In this document: piece after piece, positions 2,688 through 36,218 of the stretch
Position numbering within the stretch: position 1 is the first letter of the stretch
Layout: the number at the start of each line of letters is the position of its first letter
Source of the DNA: Vasconcelosia minhoensis LEGE 07310
Lineage (GTDB): Bacteria > Cyanobacteriota > Cyanobacteriia > Phormidesmidales > Phormidesmidaceae
DNA: 64,000 nt
Direction: 5' to 3'
NCBI RefSeq assembly: GCF_015207255.1
Contig: NZ_JADEXG010000003.1
Location: 1 to 64,000, forward strand
Notes under the pieces: model-generated
Database searches by the model: none
What the model was told of the DNA's origin: nothing
Seen by the model: only the letters and a program-made list of their open reading frames with translations
Made by a program: the position numbers and the translations under genes

Positions 2688-3574
2688 GCTTAGCAACGAT
2701 GGACGGGGCTATTTCTGAGGAGCAGCGATCTCCCTCCGCTCAGGTCTCGATTCGCAACGTGACCAAGGTCTTCCCCGGCAAAAAAGGCTTTTTCAACAAG
2801 CTCACCGGCAAGGCCAGCAGCAACTTCACGGCGATTGAAGAGATCAGCATGGAGATCGAGCCCAACACGTTCGTCACCATTATCGGACCGTCGGGCTGCG
2901 GCAAATCGACGCTGCTAAATATGATTGCTGGGCTGATGCCAATTACCGGCGGCGACATCCTGCTCAACGGTGAGCCAATTACCGGGCCGGGGCCAGACCG
3001 GGGCATGGTGTTCCAAAACTACGCCCTGATGCCCTGGATGACCGTGGCAGAAAATATTCGATTTGCGGTGGAAACCGTCGATCCGAAAATTTCGGCCAAG
3101 CGGCGCGATCGCATTATCAAAGAGCATATCCAGCTGGTTGGCCTGACTGGGGCTGAGAAAAAGCATCCCCATGAGCTCTCCGGCGGCATGCGGCAGCGGG
3201 TCGGCATCGCCCGAGCCCTGGCCATCAACCCGCAAATCCTACTGATGGACGAGCCCTTCGGCGCGCTGGACGCCCTCACCCGCGGCTTTCTCCAAGACGA
3301 AATTGAGCGGATCTGGGAGCAGCAGCGCAAAACGGTGATCATGATTACCCACAGCATCGAAGAAGCCCTGCTGCTGTCCGATCGCATCGTGATGATGACC
3401 CGTGGCCCCGCCGCCCGGGTGGACGAAATCCTGGAGATCCCCTTCCCCCGACCCCGCAATCGAGAAACCATCGAACAGTATCCGGCCTATTCGGGGCTGA
3501 AGGCGGAGATGGAGCGCCATTTGTTCCGCGAGACGCGGGCGGTGGAAGAGGCGAGGATTGGGGGGAAGAAATAA
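2684..3574 (+). CDS. cynD: Cyanate ABC transporter ATP-binding protein
   Basis: This 296-residue cytoplasmic ATPase powers CynAB. All nucleotide-binding motifs are intact: Walker A GPSGCGKS (68-75), Q-loop Gln111, ABC signature LSGGMRQ (165-171), Walker B ILLMDE ending at Glu190, and H-loop His223. It belongs to the SsuB/NrtD/TauB branch and is the single-ATPase form without the extra binding-protein domain found in NrtC. It overlaps cynB by four bases and is followed 27 bases later by cynS, which completes a cynABDS operon. A short insertion (about residues 31-48, [12 protein letters not shown]) between the first strand and the Walker A region is common in NrtD-like subunits. Confidence 0.92.
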
Positions 3575-18930: not shown

Positions 18931-21123
18931 TTACTCCTTCCAACGCTGAATCGCCTGCTGAGCCGGCTCGTAGGCGGCGGTGCCGGGCGGAATCAGGACT
19001 GCCGCCCGAATCGCGTCCGCAGTGCGACCCTGGGCGGCTCGGGCCTGGGCAATACTGAGCATCCGCTCGCTCCACTCGTCTCTCAGCTGTCTAGCCGTAT
19101 CGTATTCGGGGTGCTCGACCGGCACTGCTTCGAGTTTGACGATGCCCTGCTGATAGCTACTGGCCTGGCCAGCCCGGGGAATATCCTGCGCCTGCTGGAT
19201 AATCTGACGACTATTCAGCCGCTGCTGCCAGAAGGCAATCCGATTCTGAGCCTGCTCGTAGAGCTGGGGTCGGTCCATCGGCAGCACCCGAGCCGCCGCG
19301 ATCGCGCTTTCTAAATTGCCGCTAGCCGCTCGCCCCTCCGCCAGGTCTAAAATCACCTGACTCCAGCGGTCGATATCCTGCTGGGCTTGCTCATAGTAAG
19401 GCTCGCCCGGCGGAATCTGTCGCGCCTTGGCAATCGCAGTGGCAAACGGGGTGGCCTGGGTCGGCTGGATTGAGGTTTTGGCCTCGGCCAGGGCTGAAGC
19501 ATTGACCTGATTGGCCTGGGAGACACCCGCCTGGGCGCGGTCTAAGACAGCCTCATAGGTGGGGGTCCGATCGGCCTCGGGTACCTGCTGAAGCAGCGCC
19601 AGGGCTTCAGAATATTGCTGATTGGCGATGGCGGCTCGAGCCTGGTCGAGCCGCGGCTCGTCACTGCTATCGGCAGCGGTGACAGCCACGGGCTCTCCCG
19701 CTGCCGGGGCCGGGTCTGGGGGCTCAGTCGCCGTGTCAATTCTGGCTCCGTCATCCGCATCTAGTCCAAGCTGTGCGGCCAGACCGCTCAGCACCTGATC
19801 AACCCGGCCCTGGTTGACCAGCAAAAAACCGCCCACAGCCGCAACCAGTACAGCAGCTAAGGCCCAGTTACGCCAGGGACTGCCAGCCGCAGCCTGGCGG
19901 CGCTCGGTGGACAGCTCAACTTCAGCAATGGCACCGGCAGTCGTAGGGTCCTCAGAAAGTTCAGCGCCCAGGTCCAATCGTTCGTCCAGGGAGCTTTCGG
20001 GTGAACCCGCATTGCCCGCACTGTCGAATCCCGAGTCCCAATCTTCAGCCAGCTCTAGTCGTTCATCGGTCTCGGCCAAATCTGGGTCGGCCAGATCTAA
20101 ATTGGCCAAATCTGAGTCAGGCAGATCTGGGTCGGGAAAACCAGGATTCGGCAGACCTGGTATTTCAGTTGCCGGGTCTGGGGAAACTGGGCTGACCGGG
20201 CTTTCCAGAAGGCCTGAGCGACTAGCTGGGCGGTCATCTGGGCGGTCTTCTGGGCGGTCTTCTGGGCGGTCTTCTGGGCGGCCATCTGGGCGGTCTTCTG
20301 GGCGGTCTTCTGGGCGGTCTTCTGGGCGGTCTTCTGGGCGGCCAGTCGATAGGGCGGTGCCGGTTGGGACAGGTAGGGCCGCGATCGCGCTCTGGGGAAT
20401 TACCATCAAAAACTTTTGCTGGTCCGGCAGTACTGCAACCGAGTTCTGAATGGGTCGCCAGTGGTGGTCACAGAGCTGGGGCAGCCGCTGACTGAGATAA
20501 ATTGCAATCTGATCCAGGGTGACGCAGCCGTGGGCGCCCATGCCCTCCAGCAAGGCCGCCGTAAACAGCCCGTGGCGCAAGGCCAGGGTTTCATGGGAAA
20601 ACTGCTCAGGCTGACAGGATAGCAGGGTAGGAATATCTCGCGTTTTAGCCAGCTGCAGGGTTTGACTGCCGATGGTCTGATTGGCCAAGGCACCTTGACT
20701 GCGATTGATATCCAACGCCAGCACAATGTTATGAGTGGGGGCCTGGCTCAGCATCGTCATCAGACCCTCAATTGCAATCCCAGTCTGAGCAATCTGGCCC
20801 GGATCGCCCTCTAGCGGCATCAGGTAATCCGCCTGCTCTAGCTGCACCCCATAGCCGCTAAAAAATATCCAAAGCAAATCGTCAGGCTGAAGTTTGGCCT
20901 GCACGTTCTGAATTGCCCGAGTAATGCTGGACCGGTCGGGATGGATGGCAGCATAGCCGGTCGCCCCTAGCCCCTCGCTCAGCAGCAGGCAGCATTCTGG
21001 TCTAAAGCCCGCCGACTCGACTAAAAACTGCCGCAGGGCCAGCGCATCGTTCTGTGCATGCATCAACGGCTGCAAAAACTGGTACTGATTAATGCCAACG
21101 ATAATTGCCCAGTAGTTAGCCAT
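18931..21123 (-). CDS. Orthocaspase-like protein with Tyr/Asn in place of the His/Cys dyad
   Basis: A 730-residue protein with an N-terminal caspase p20-like domain (about 1-245; WAIIVGINQY, DLLWIFFSGYG, IVLALDINRS). The two catalytic positions are substituted: SGHG becomes SGYG (Tyr91), and the Asp-x-Cys site becomes Asp138-Ile-Asn140. Protease activity is therefore not expected; Tyr/Asn variants are a known non-catalytic branch of cyanobacterial caspase homologs. A (RPED)n tract (262-297) and a degenerate Pro/Asp/Leu repeat (about 321-352) follow. One membrane helix (418-437) precedes a C-terminal region of helical hairpin repeats (ALLQQVPEADRT, ARQIPPGEPYYEQAQ). A scaffold or signalling role is inferred. 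Confidence 0.88.
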   Translation of the reverse strand: MANYWAIIVGINQYQFLQPLMHAQNDALALRQFLVESAGFRPECCLLLSEGLGATGYAAIHPDRSSITRAIQNVQAKLQPDDLLWIFFSGYGVQLEQADYLMPLEGDPGQIAQTGIAIEGLMTMLSQAPTHNIVLALDINRSQGALANQTIGSQTLQLAKTRDIPTLLSCQPEQFSHETLALRHGLFTAALLEGMGAHGCVTLDQIAIYLSQRLPQLCDHHWRPIQNSVAVLPDQQKFLMVIPQSAIAALPVPTGTALSTGRPEDRPEDRPEDRPEDRPDGRPEDRPEDRPEDRPDDRPASRSGLLESPVSPVSPDPATEIPGLPNPGFPDPDLPDSDLANLDLADPDLAETDERLELAEDWDSGFDSAGNAGSPESSLDERLDLGAELSEDPTTAGAIAEVELSTERRQAAAGSPWRNWALAAVLVAAVGGFLLVNQGRVDQVLSGLAAQLGLDADDGARIDTATEPPDPAPAAGEPVAVTAADSSDEPRLDQARAAIANQQYSEALALLQQVPEADRTPTYEAVLDRAQAGVSQANQVNASALAEAKTSIQPTQATPFATAIAKARQIPPGEPYYEQAQQDIDRWSQVILDLAEGRAASGNLESAIAAARVLPMDRPQLYEQAQNRIAFWQQRLNSRQIIQQAQDIPRAGQASSYQQGIVKLEAVPVEHPEYDTARQLRDEWSERMLSIAQARAAQGRTADAIRAAVLIPPGTAAYEPAQQAIQRWKE
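20233..20340 (-). repeat. Coding minisatellite, nine 12-bp units
   Basis: Nine tandem 12-base units (plus strand CTGGGCGGTCTT with variants) encode RPED, RPDG or RPDD repeats in the caspase-like protein. The unit is a multiple of three, so copy-number changes keep the frame. Two of the units differ by CAT for CTT. Confidence 0.92.
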
Positions 21124-27436: not shown

Positions 27437-28255
27437 ATGACTAGAGCCGCCTCTACCCAAACCGCCACCGCCACCCGGGCGCAGCCCGAGCTGGATCAGG
27501 ACCAGCCGAAACTCGCCGTCAGCGGCGTCTATAAGTCGTTCCAGTCCCAGGGCAAGCCGCTGATGGTGCTCCAAGATATTGACTTAGAGATCTATCCGCG
27601 AGAGTTTACCTGTCTGGTAGGGTCTTCCGGCTGCGGCAAGTCTACCCTGCTGAACATTGTGGCGGGCCTGATGTCGCCCTCGGCGGGCAAAATTGCGGTG
27701 GATGGTCGGCCGGTCACCGGGCCAGGGTCTGACCGAGGCATGGTGTTTCAAACCTATACCCTCTATCCCTGGCTGACCGTCGCCGGCAATATTCAGTTTG
27801 GCCTGAGGCTGCGCGGCATGTCGCGGGGAGAACGGCGCGATCGCGTCGCCTACTACCTGGACGTAGTTGGCCTGTCTCAGTTTGCCGATGCCTACCCCAA
27901 GCAGCTCTCGGGCGGCATGAAGCAGCGGGTCGCGATCGCCCGCGCCCTGGCCAACGACCCCGAGGTGCTGCTGATGGATGAGCCCTTTGGCGCGCTCGAT
28001 GCCCAAACCAAGGAGCAGATGCAGCAGTTTCTGCTCAGGCTGTGGCGGCAGACCCACACCACCGTGCTGATGATCACCCACGACATTGAAGAGGCGATTT
28101 TTCTCTCCCAGCGGGTCTACGTGATGAGCGCTCGGCCTGGAAAAATTAAGCGCACAATCCCCATCGAGCTGCCGCCCAACCGCGAGTTAGAAATTAAGCT
28201 AGACCCCGAGTTCATTGACATCAAGCGCGATATCATTCAGTCTTTGCATCGGTAG
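27437..28255 (+). CDS. SsuB/NrtD/TauB-type ABC ATPase without adjacent permease
   Basis: A 272-residue ATPase of the nitrate/sulfonate/taurine class with every motif intact: Walker A GSSGCGKS (62-69), Gln105, LSGGMKQ (157-163), DE (181-182), and ITHDIEEA with the switch His. ATG 27437 is preferred; the frame is open back to 27206 but that would run inside cruG. It lies 64 bases after cruG, yet no permease or binding-protein gene of this class is nearby; the nearest is cynAB, 25 kb away. Its partners must be encoded elsewhere. It is roughly as similar to bicarbonate/nitrate ATPases as to taurine ones. Confidence 0.88.
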   Translation: MTRAASTQTATATRAQPELDQDQPKLAVSGVYKSFQSQGKPLMVLQDIDLEIYPREFTCLVGSSGCGKSTLLNIVAGLMSPSAGKIAVDGRPVTGPGSDRGMVFQTYTLYPWLTVAGNIQFGLRLRGMSRGERRDRVAYYLDVVGLSQFADAYPKQLSGGMKQRVAIARALANDPEVLLMDEPFGALDAQTKEQMQQFLLRLWRQTHTTVLMITHDIEEAIFLSQRVYVMSARPGKIKRTIPIELPPNRELEIKLDPEFIDIKRDIIQSLHR

Positions 28256-33701: not shown

Positions 33702-34650
33702 AAATAAGAAATGTCCTGAGGCAACCGGAGAATGGGCAAGCTGGAGAAGTAATCTGGAGAAAATATATACCGCCTTTCTATCATGCTACTCAGCCTGGGA
33801 TAAAGGCTCATAGCTGATAGAATTCGCTACAGTTCGCGTGGGCTCGGTTAAAAAAGCTTGGAAAATCAGGTATTGCCTCCGGTTCTAAAGAGTTTCTGTA
33901 AGTTCCCAAATGTTACAAATCGCTACATTATACCGATACCAGCAGCGGAAAGGGGCGATCGCAGTCCCCCTCAGGCCCCAATGCCCCAGAACTCAGCGGC
34001 TGAGCCTGACAGTACTGGGACAGCCAGGCCACCCCGGCAAACGAGCGCAGCGGCGTCACCACCAGGCAGAGCGGGCGATAGGGAAAATCGCCAGGCATAC
34101 CGACTGGAGCCCGCGAGTGGAGAAACCTGTAGTAGGTAGCTCACGCCGTCAATCTCAAGCTGACGAGTTAGCGCCTGCTGAGATTCGGCCCCATCGCCCC
34201 GAGCAGTCGCAATCGCCGCTTCATAACTCACCGCCTCCCAGCCCAGCTGCCGACTCAGCTGAGTGACGCCAGACCTGAGCCAGTCTAAAACCGAGGACTG
34301 ACGCAGGCGGCCACTAGCCCAAGCCAGGAATTAGAGTTAGCGCGAATCATCAGCATGTCCTGTTTATCGAGCTTCAGCTAAGGAAAATCTCTCGCGGCTG
34401 TAGGCGGCAGCTGTCACGTTACTGACGTCCCTCTGAGCAGCCGTTTCCCCTACTGAAATCTTTCTCAACCTTCTAGGACTGGACGATCTAGCCGACTGTG
34501 GCGAATTCCTGCTCCAGCACCACAGCATTTCATCATCATCTGAAGTTCAAATGATTTTTGAAAAGCCTCCGATCAGGGCTGCCGTCTCAGCATAGTCCGG
34601 TCAATCAGAGCCTCCCTTTCCGGGATTCGCTAACTCGAACGAGAGTCTGT
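33702..34650. other. Gene-poor region with remnants
   Basis: No intact gene is seen in this 0.9 kb apart from the frameshifted remnant at 33971-34356 on the minus strand. A short open plus-strand frame (34452-34595) reads EIFLNLLGLDDLADCGEFLL and ends at TAG 34593; it may be the 3' end of a lost gene. The plus-strand frames at 33858 and 33910 look like antisense shadows. Confidence 0.45.
33971..34356 (-). pseudogene. Frameshifted small hypothetical gene
   Basis: ATG at 34356 after AGGA opens MLMIRANSNSWLG. Losing one base near 34318 moves the frame into SGRLRQSSVLDWLRSGVTQL and then SYEAAIATARGDG, LEIDGVSYLLQVSPLAGSS and YAWRFSLSP, ending at 33971. The two halves read naturally together as one protein of about 128 residues, so I call it a frameshifted gene rather than two ORFs. 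I do not recognise the family. Confidence 0.5.
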
Positions 34651-34775
34651 GTAGCTAGAAAATCGAGCAGAATTGCCTGATGAGGCGCGCCGAGCGGCCT
34701 ATCTTCGGCTAGCTTTTCAGAAAATTTGTAGCCTCGCTGGATATCCGCGATCGCGCATAGCCCCAAATCCTATCC
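34651..34775. repeat. Direct repeat, copy 1 (duplicated 3' end of the Nudix gene)
   Basis: These 125 bases match 35800-35924 with about seven mismatches (about 94% identity) in the same orientation. They correspond to the last part of the Nudix coding region on the minus strand. The space between the copies holds exactly the two-gene nucleotidyltransferase module. Confidence 0.92.
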
Positions 34776-34793
34776 TTCCGTACCAACGCAGGA

Positions 34794-35078
34794 TTAGGTG
34801 GCGTTGCCGAATTCAAGTGCGTTGCAAAAGCTGTTGAGGCTACTCAACAGGGCATTGTAATAGAAATAAGCATCGTCCCGTTCGTCCTGCAGACGAGCAT
34901 ACAATTTTAATTCTGGCTCTGATGATAGATGACTTTTGGGAACGTCTAGGCCAGCTTCAGTTAAGCGTGTTGATGCGATTGCAATCAATAATGCACCGAC
35001 TGTTTCAGCTTTACCATTGTATAAATCCTCCAATCCAGGCAGGATAAATTCTGCCCCTGGTAACTCCTCAAGGTTCAT
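34794..35078 (-). CDS. Small partner protein of the nucleotidyltransferase module
   Basis: A 94-residue acidic protein, second gene of a coupled pair: its ATG overlaps the stop of the upstream nucleotidyltransferase gene (35075-35078). It reads LPGAEFILPGLEDLYNGKAE, then ALLIAIASTRLTEAGLDVP, and a helical C-terminus. Similar small proteins accompany DUF6036-type nucleotidyltransferases in other cyanobacteria, from memory of that gene arrangement. No DNA-binding or catalytic motif is visible. It could be the antitoxin-like or regulatory half of a two-gene module; this is inference. Confidence 0.7.
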   Translation of the reverse strand: MNLEELPGAEFILPGLEDLYNGKAETVGALLIAIASTRLTEAGLDVPKSHLSSEPELKLYARLQDERDDAYFYYNALLSSLNSFCNALEFGNAT

Positions 35079-35617
35079 AGCTCTCTTCCTTGCAATGCCT
35101 GCTGAATAAACATACTGACCCTACCTTTTAGAATCCCAGAATTAATAGAAGGAAAACGGATTAATTCAGGCTCGATAGCTTCAAAACAATCTCGCAAATC
35201 TTCTAATGAAAACAATCCTTGTGTATACATAGCTCGAACATCGTTAAGGTCGCGATCGTATCCCCTTGATAGCTTAGACAGTGCTTGGGCTGTAAAGTCA
35301 TAGTGGTAGAACGCAATTTGGCCGCGTTTGCCAATAAAAACGCTTCTATCACGCCATCCTGGAAGCGTTGGCAAGAAATCTTGGGGAGAGGCTAATTCTA
35401 TATTAATATTCAGTTCTTGTTTAAGCTTAGCGATAGCTTGGAAAATTCCTGGAGGTTCAGGGTCTAAGCGAATATCGACATCGACAGTAGAACTACGCCA
35501 TCCAATCAGTAAAGCACTAGCTCCTCCGGTAAAATAAATGCACCCTGAACCACGAGCTTCTCTGCCCAAAGTCGTCATAAGCTGCTCTATCTTTTTAGGA
35601 TCAATGTTTGAACGCAT
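35075..35617 (-). CDS. DUF6036/AbiEii-like nucleotidyltransferase
   Basis: A 180-residue minimal nucleotidyltransferase. The active-site pattern is seen as FTGGASALLIGW (Gly31-Gly32) followed by TVDVDIRL with the metal-binding Asp46 and Asp48, then a third acid region near NINIELASPQDFL. This is the MNT/AbiEii/DUF6036 arrangement. Relatives act in toxin-antitoxin or phage-defence pairs by modifying tRNA or a partner protein. It overlaps the downstream 94-residue partner by four bases. The pair sits between two copies of a 125-base Nudix-gene repeat and has lower GC than its neighbours, both consistent with horizontal acquisition. Confidence 0.82.
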   Translation of the reverse strand: MRSNIDPKKIEQLMTTLGREARGSGCIYFTGGASALLIGWRSSTVDVDIRLDPEPPGIFQAIAKLKQELNINIELASPQDFLPTLPGWRDRSVFIGKRGQIAFYHYDFTAQALSKLSRGYDRDLNDVRAMYTQGLFSLEDLRDCFEAIEPELIRFPSINSGILKGRVSMFIQQALQGREL

Positions 35618-35783
35618 GGTTTATATATACTGGGTCATTCATATAAATTGCTTGCTTGCCATAGTCTCTCAGATTCGGGATGGGCGATGTATTAAGTTGT
35701 CTAGCACGCCAAAGATAATAAGTAATGACTATTCTATTTCCAACCTTCCTGTCAAGAATTATTGAGAATAGACTATGCTCAAA

Positions 35784-36218
35784 TTAGCTGAGCGGCTGCG
35801 TAGCTAGAAAGTCCAGCAGAATCGCCCGATGGGGCGCGCCGAGGGGCCTATCTTCGGCTAGCTTTTCAGAAAATTTGTAGCCTCGCTGGATATCCGCGAT
35901 CGCGCATAGCCCCAAATCCTGTCCCTCATTCAGCTGAAGCTGGTCAGGCGACACTGTCAGCGGCCCATGGTAGAAGTGGCGAATGATCCTGCCGTCGTTG
36001 ATCTGTTTGTAGCGCGTGAGCTGGGGAGGTGTATAGCCAATCTCTTCGTCCAGCTCCCTGGACACGGCGGTATCGGCGTCTTCGCCGGGTTCTAGATGTC
36101 CGCCAAAAAAGGCCCAGTGGCCAGGGTAGATAATGCTGGGCAGGTCGTCTCGCAGCTGCATCAGGAAGCAGTTATCTCGGTAGAGGAGCGCGATCGCGAC
36201 TTCTAGCAGCTGACCCAT
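35784..36218 (-). CDS. Nudix hydrolase
   Basis: A 144-residue Nudix-family pyrophosphohydrolase. The Nudix box GX5EX7REUXEEXGU is perfect: GHLEPGE, then RELDEEIGY. The fold is preceded by YPGHWAFFGG, a layout common in MutT-like and NUDT-type enzymes. The substrate could be a damaged nucleotide, ADP-ribose or a similar diphosphate. Its 3' 125 bases recur at 34651-34775 beyond the nucleotidyltransferase module, so this is the intact copy of a partially duplicated gene. It starts at ATG 36218. Confidence 0.92.
   Translation of the reverse strand: MGQLLEVAIALLYRDNCFLMQLRDDLPSIIYPGHWAFFGGHLEPGEDADTAVSRELDEEIGYTPPQLTRYKQINDGRIIRHFYHGPLTVSPDQLQLNEGQDLGLCAIADIQRGYKFSEKLAEDRPLGAPHRAILLDFLATQPLS
35800..35924. 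repeat. Direct repeat, copy 2 (within the Nudix gene)
   Basis: Partner of 34651-34775, at an offset of 1149 bases. It lies inside the intact Nudix coding sequence (C-terminal residues about 99-139). The repeat ends within the gene, not at its stop codon. Confidence 0.92.

Follow-up and report, generated by a model that had tools for sequence, protein, structure and literature searches.

A nucleotidyltransferase toxin-antitoxin-like module between a cyanobacterial Nudix gene and a remnant of its 3' end: probable import anchored in a donor gene end

Insertion with long target duplication has been reported for R-M systems (Nobusato 2000 and Furuta 2010, as cited in PMC3031569 and PMC3874152), and the locus described here resembles the insertions of those cited accounts in its small, putatively addiction-type unit, its lack of mobility genes and its long direct repeats of variable length. 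How small toxin-antitoxin (TA) or R-M modules change their chromosomal site without mobility genes has been a question since those reports. A second system, homology-facilitated illegitimate recombination (HFIR), was described in transformable bacteria and proposed for the T6SS effector-immunity arrays of Vibrio cholerae (PMC5361080). One homologous anchor, one non-homologous end and an additive insertion would be common to these arrays and the present locus, as would the displacement of old gene 3' ends as remnants in serial rounds. The third system is transformation in pneumococcus, for which interchromatid integration creating duplications was modelled and tested; there, as proposed here, donor DNA bridging two chromosome copies gives rise to a duplication, whereas the pneumococcal process requires repeats in the recipient, and its studied example duplicates 107 kb (PMC3784515).

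The window (the whole 64-kb stretch of DNA analysed, from Vasconcelosia minhoensis LEGE 07310) contains, in minus-strand order, an intact Nudix hydrolase gene, a spacer, a nucleotidyltransferase gene (NT), the gene of its small partner (PT) and a second copy of the Nudix 3' end (Table 1). The two copies of the gene end form a direct repeat of 138 bp (92% identical; core of ~132 bp), which a repeat search returned as the top self-match of the window with 200 bits, the runner-up having 125 bits. A previous sequence-only reading of this DNA had placed copies of ~94% identity at 34651-34775 and 35800-35924, and these proved to be the inner part of the 138-bp repeat. It had also described a coupled nucleotidyltransferase and small partner between the copies, as is indeed found: the start of PT overlaps the end of NT by 4 bp (ATGA) on the same strand. 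More precisely, the module lies downstream of an intact Nudix gene, to which only one of the two copies belongs. That copy, on the right, forms the 3' end of the gene; the left-hand one is a remnant, a fragment without the Nudix start and box, joined on its upstream side to the module and continuing in frame as VRVSESRKGRL up to a stop at 34605. The tails of the two copies differ, the intact copy ending in PLS* and the remnant in QTLVRVSESRKGRL.

Table 1. Features of the Nudix locus in the window
Feature	Position	Strand	Basis or remark
Intact Nudix hydrolase gene, 144 aa	35784..36218	-	ORF; Pfam NUDIX E 9e-13; Nudix box GHLEPGEDADTAVSRELDEEIGY
Repeat copy 1, end of the intact Nudix gene; stops 6 bp short of the stop codon	35790..35927	-	
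AT-rich spacer, 172 bp, 36% GC, Nudix stop to NT start	35618..35789	-	
NT, DUF6036 nucleotidyltransferase, 180 aa	35075..35617	-	Pfam PF19502 E 8.9e-9
PT, 94-aa all-helical partner	34794..35078	-	ORF; predicted structure
Repeat copy 2, Nudix 3'-end remnant	34641..34778	-	Repeat search, ORF
Whole insert between the repeats, 1011 bp	34779..35789	.	GC 42%
Weak DUF1822-like fragment	33971..34231	-	Pfam 14.6 bits, under the cut-off of 25

The GC content of the insert lies below the 56% of the window, and the spacer, which is not common to other module loci, is presumed to be the promoter region. Downstream of the remnant, the DUF1822-like fragment lies in sequence otherwise poor in genes. Rfam and tRNA scans around the locus gave no match. 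A composite transposon was considered and rejected: no IS copies flank the module, and the flanking repeat was identified by repeat search and Pfam as the end of the Nudix gene. Elsewhere in the window, a 71-bp tandem-like repeat was noted at 20214-20344, as well as a 388-bp pair of 68% identity at 2891-3275 and 27626-28004, 24.7 kb apart.

NT is a member of DUF6036 (PF19502), with 35.8 bits against a Pfam gathering cut-off of 23.6, and residues G31, G32, D46 and D48, of its GG and DxD motifs, are invariant in an alignment of 28 sequences. Its structural model (pLDDT 90) has nucleotidyltransferases as best PDB matches, with a Foldseek probability of 0.99 but E-values of 0.004-0.013, and the predicted fold is closest to MenT1, TM1012 and LnuA-type enzymes. 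With DUF6036 nucleotidyltransferases and the MenT1/MenAT1 nucleotidyltransferase toxins the pair has in common a nucleotidyltransferase fold, the GG and DxD motifs and a small operon partner. PT has no Pfam match; its confident helical model, compared with PDB structures also with a view to homology with MenA, gave no significant match, and the protein has no evident resemblance to known antitoxins. The toxin role of NT is predicted. The MNT-HEPN type was rejected, PT having neither the invariant R-x4-6-H motif nor a HEPN Pfam match. PADLOC returned no match for NT or PT and a weak match of the Nudix protein to PDC-S07. Both genes are intact at 50 distinct loci, with an overlap of typically 4 bp, and this overlapping, co-occurring two-gene operon is of the kind that characterizes type II toxin-antitoxin systems; the earlier suggestion that the cargo looks like a toxin-antitoxin pair is in keeping with it. 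NT is broken beside an intact PT at seven loci and the reverse is found at one, counts that are small and whose asymmetry has to be discounted for the greater length of NT. Because NT is lost more often than PT, the counts weakly hint that NT would be the toxin and PT its antitoxin.

The Nudix gene is present in 61 of the 65 family genomes, essentially as a single copy, and the 29 family loci compared have no neighbours of this gene in common. In the same 65 genomes NT was detected in 17 and PT in 23, at other places; this Nudix gene is absent from all other module loci that were fetched. The module is apparently mobile and the Nudix gene is not, and the idea of a mobile cargo inserted at the 3' end of a gene that is left intact is supported. 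At the class level NT occurs in 41 of 340 genomes, and the module is scattered patchily over the cyanobacteria, which account for nearly all of the 74 named module loci fetched. A relative in Gemmatimonadaceae (L266; 42-44% identity) has the reversed gene order, with PT upstream of NT.

Where module copies are less than 90% identical, similarity ends upstream at 4 bp from NT (median) and downstream within the last codons of PT, and even some pairs at 94-95% have only 6-39 bp upstream in common. Conserved termini, transposon ends or cassette ends were not found among the 47 module loci compared. These limits bear on site-specific integration at gene 3' ends, by an element with a tyrosine or serine recombinase or as an integron cassette. 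Some islands do enter at the 3' end of a gene and leave it restored, and the sequence-only reading had suggested such a mobile island; against it stand the targets that vary between loci, the absence of a recombinase among the neighbouring ORFs scanned with Pfam and of a tRNA at the locus, and the lack of an att core and of conserved ends in modules that cease to be homologous at the start of NT and close to the stop of PT. We regard site-specific integration as scarcely credible.

As a bracket, we considered a non-repetitive direct repeat flanking the module within 1 kb. Brackets were present at 13 of the 65 complete module loci tested, several of them short or intergenic and some at related loci that are not fully independent, versus 30 of 1743 pseudo-modules (Fisher 8e-10) and 19 of 975 control positions (1.7-1.9%). 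Their lengths are 29-463 bp, plus one IS-like pair of 1.3 kb, and ~80% of the module loci have no detectable bracket. Loci of DUF5615 toxins, an unrelated family, were bracketed in 8 of 25 cases; the controls gave 0/24 for Uma2, 0/27 for Nudix, 0/29 for coxC and 2/221 for random positions. Clear brackets involve coxC in Shackletoniella antarctica (463 bp, 98.5%), the gene of a HigA-like antitoxin in Leptolyngbya PCC 6406 (323 bp, 97%) and that of an SNF2-type helicase in Thermosynechococcaceae MS004 (281 bp, 97%), gene names at bracketed loci being read from ORFs save where Pfam is cited. A GFA gene at L092 has the same bracketed layout. Long repeats of variable length, at different loci and without mobility genes, are the features by which insertion with long target duplication is recognized. 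If the two parts of the structure arose independently, part of the Nudix end having been duplicated in tandem long ago and the module having landed between the copies later, each single step would be ordinary; yet many loci with different genes would need the same coincidence, and TA-like modules have brackets at least 10 times as often as control positions, so that this course of events is very improbable.

The copies themselves carry information about their origin. In all nine cases with a gene, the end of the repeat lies between -19 and +30 bp from the stop codon, where the fusion of two orthologues with unrelated downstream DNA would be expected to place it. Third codon positions hold 109 of the 163 differences in the nine true gene ends. 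In the five youngest of these they hold 32 of 44 (p 1e-7), and 29 of the 44 are synonymous where 30% would be expected (p 9e-7). No excess of third-position or synonymous differences is seen in repeats that lack a real gene. The copies thus appear to have diverged as functional orthologues, in different lineages, before they met, and divergence should have preceded joining, since codon sense would hardly have been under selection in a truncated remnant. In this they differ from the R-M duplications as presented in the cited accounts, and the repeat, made of copies that diverged as orthologues, would be at least partly an imported gene end and not a duplicated target.

The positions of the differences point in the same direction. 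The copies in the window differ at 11 sites, nine of them in the last 61 bp of the gene (p 0.013, modest alone), followed by 76 identical bp and then by two differences at the outer edge, where the repeat may have been extended by chance. At L081, six of seven differences fall in the last 55 of 463 bp (p 2e-5), and at L084 eight of ten in the last 64 of 323 bp (p 7e-5). At all three loci the differences gather beside the module, with few or none in the inner part, a pattern that suggests a short donor tail followed by recipient sequence present twice; the simple mosaic is absent at L134 and L136. Gene conversion between the copies could also produce differing edges around an identical middle.

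According to strict long target duplication, some recombinase-free step copies 60-460 bp, the copies start identical and the remnant decays. The architecture agrees with the R-M insertions as cited, which are long, variable and of the order of 100 bp, and the central stretches of 76-360 bp that are identical or nearly so are compatible with a copy of the recipient's own target. Decay, however, predicts differences at all codon positions and along the full length, whereas those observed are biased towards synonymous sites and clustered, and target copying offers no reason for repeat ends at stop codons. The synonymous bias, together with the match between gene ends of different species described below for ArsR, is at odds with a repeat that merely copies the recipient's target. 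Because of the codon bias and the ArsR tree, we reject pure target duplication as the main account, and consider it unlikely for this locus. The sequence-only reading had likewise taken the copies for a duplicated target, which has to be revised in favour of a gene end that appears to be donor-derived.

An integration of the Campbell type, in which a circle with the module and the 3' part of an orthologous Nudix gene enters by one crossover and the middle of the repeat is later converted, would yield the same order of intact gene, module and gene-end copy and would account for donor divergence. A plasmid search found the module only on Leptolyngbya boryana plasmids, which speaks for such circles, and no relative of the module was found on viral contigs, which speaks against them. 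Moreover, divergence would be expected along the whole repeat unless it was converted, and a circle already joining the module to each target gene would be required. This explanation appears improbable, more so than target copying.

Genomes of relatives allowed the joined pieces to be traced at two other loci. The check for an empty site that had been suggested succeeded at the sibling coxC locus and failed in the window, for whose remnant flank the 65 family genomes, all of distant relatives, gave no useful empty site. Empty coxC sites occur in congeners including G048, G047, G045, G042, G031 and G026, where coxC is directly followed by the flank that lies behind the remnant in S. antarctica. 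In G029, the closest relative, coxC is followed instead by the 193 bp found between intact coxC and PT in S. antarctica. Comparison of the flanks in these congeners and in G029 therefore shows two haplotypes of one locus joined end to end.

At the ArsR locus, three congeners carry three different cargos between a remnant of the ArsR end and the intact ArsR gene; those at L090, L092 and L323 (G007, G006 and G003) were noted as DUF433/DUF5615, RHH-GFA and Uma2. The ArsR gene end is an apparent hot spot of insertion. The G003 remnant beside RHH-GFA groups with the intact ArsR end of G006 as its sister (87%, support 0.99) and is closer to the intact end of another species than to its own intact copy (80%), a match that had been predicted from serial insertion and was borne out. 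Between G003 and G006, RHH-GFA and the ArsR end are 95% identical over 1214 bp, while neighbouring genes reach 76-78%, which indicates that the cargo moves together with the gene end. A homologous junction with donor DNA up to one side of it, as in HFIR, is seen in the mosaics of the window, L081 and L084 and at coxC and ArsR.

We propose that NT-PT was probably acquired by an additive, homology-anchored import of the HFIR kind, which brought in the module plus a donor gene end. The model for the window is carried over from the sibling loci because neither a donor haplotype, sought in family genomes and module loci, nor a close relative with an empty site was found for it. The donor would have been a related cyanobacterium with the module just behind the orthologous Nudix gene, and natural transformation is the presumed route. 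Homologous recombination would have taken place between the last ~60 bp of the donor gene and the recipient Nudix gene, while the opposite end of the imported DNA would have been attached, without homology, inside a second copy of this gene, ~130-145 bp before its stop. Cyanobacteria are typically polyploid, and the second copy presumably lay on a sister chromosome. The outcome would be additive: an intact Nudix gene with a donor tail, the module, a remnant with the native end and the native downstream sequence. Accordingly labelled by origin, the last ~61 bp of the intact gene are putatively donor-derived and the remnant is the likely native Nudix end. Under selection for a whole gene, duplications would be retained in preference to deletions, and cargo of an addiction type would be hard to lose. 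Repeated rounds of HFIR anchored in the end of one gene would stack cargos with remnants in between. In contrast to V. cholerae, the anchors here are the 3' ends of unrelated conserved genes and the cargo is a TA-like pair; the old gene stays whole with its donor tail, and the remnant marks a long direct repeat.

More broadly, and tentatively, since we hold this generalization to be slightly more open to doubt than to belief, addiction-type modules in cyanobacteria might spread without a recombinase of their own by riding with the 3' end of an adjoining conserved gene, which would serve as their anchor in the next genome and keep the host gene whole; repeated rounds might stack modules between remnants, and 'long target duplications' might at least partly be recombinational imports. 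The duplicated piece would record its origin, with donor-type synonymous changes beside the module and a recipient-type flank behind the remnant, and this record separates target copying from homologous import. A TA-like gene with a gene end on one side and a remnant of that end on the other is a simple signature for genome-wide searches; the import model predicts hot spots behind conserved genes, as at ArsR, and the mechanism becomes testable in transformable laboratory cyanobacteria.

Several module loci have peculiarities of their own. At L080/L207 (Leptolyngbya cf. ectocarpi), a fragment of a second module (NT end, PT start) lies upstream of the module, at 209-337 and 1688-1816 in oriented coordinates, with a ParDE-like pair in between. 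The module of L135 is surrounded by a dense family of repeats of ~70-300 bp, and that of L263 (Sphaerospermopsis kisseleviana NIES-73) is flanked by a pair of identical direct repeats of 1343 bp, which may be IS copies. At L153, a HEPN-MNT-like pair (1045-2282) lies right behind PT and has a bracket of its own, a repeat of ~218 bp of a neighbouring gene end.
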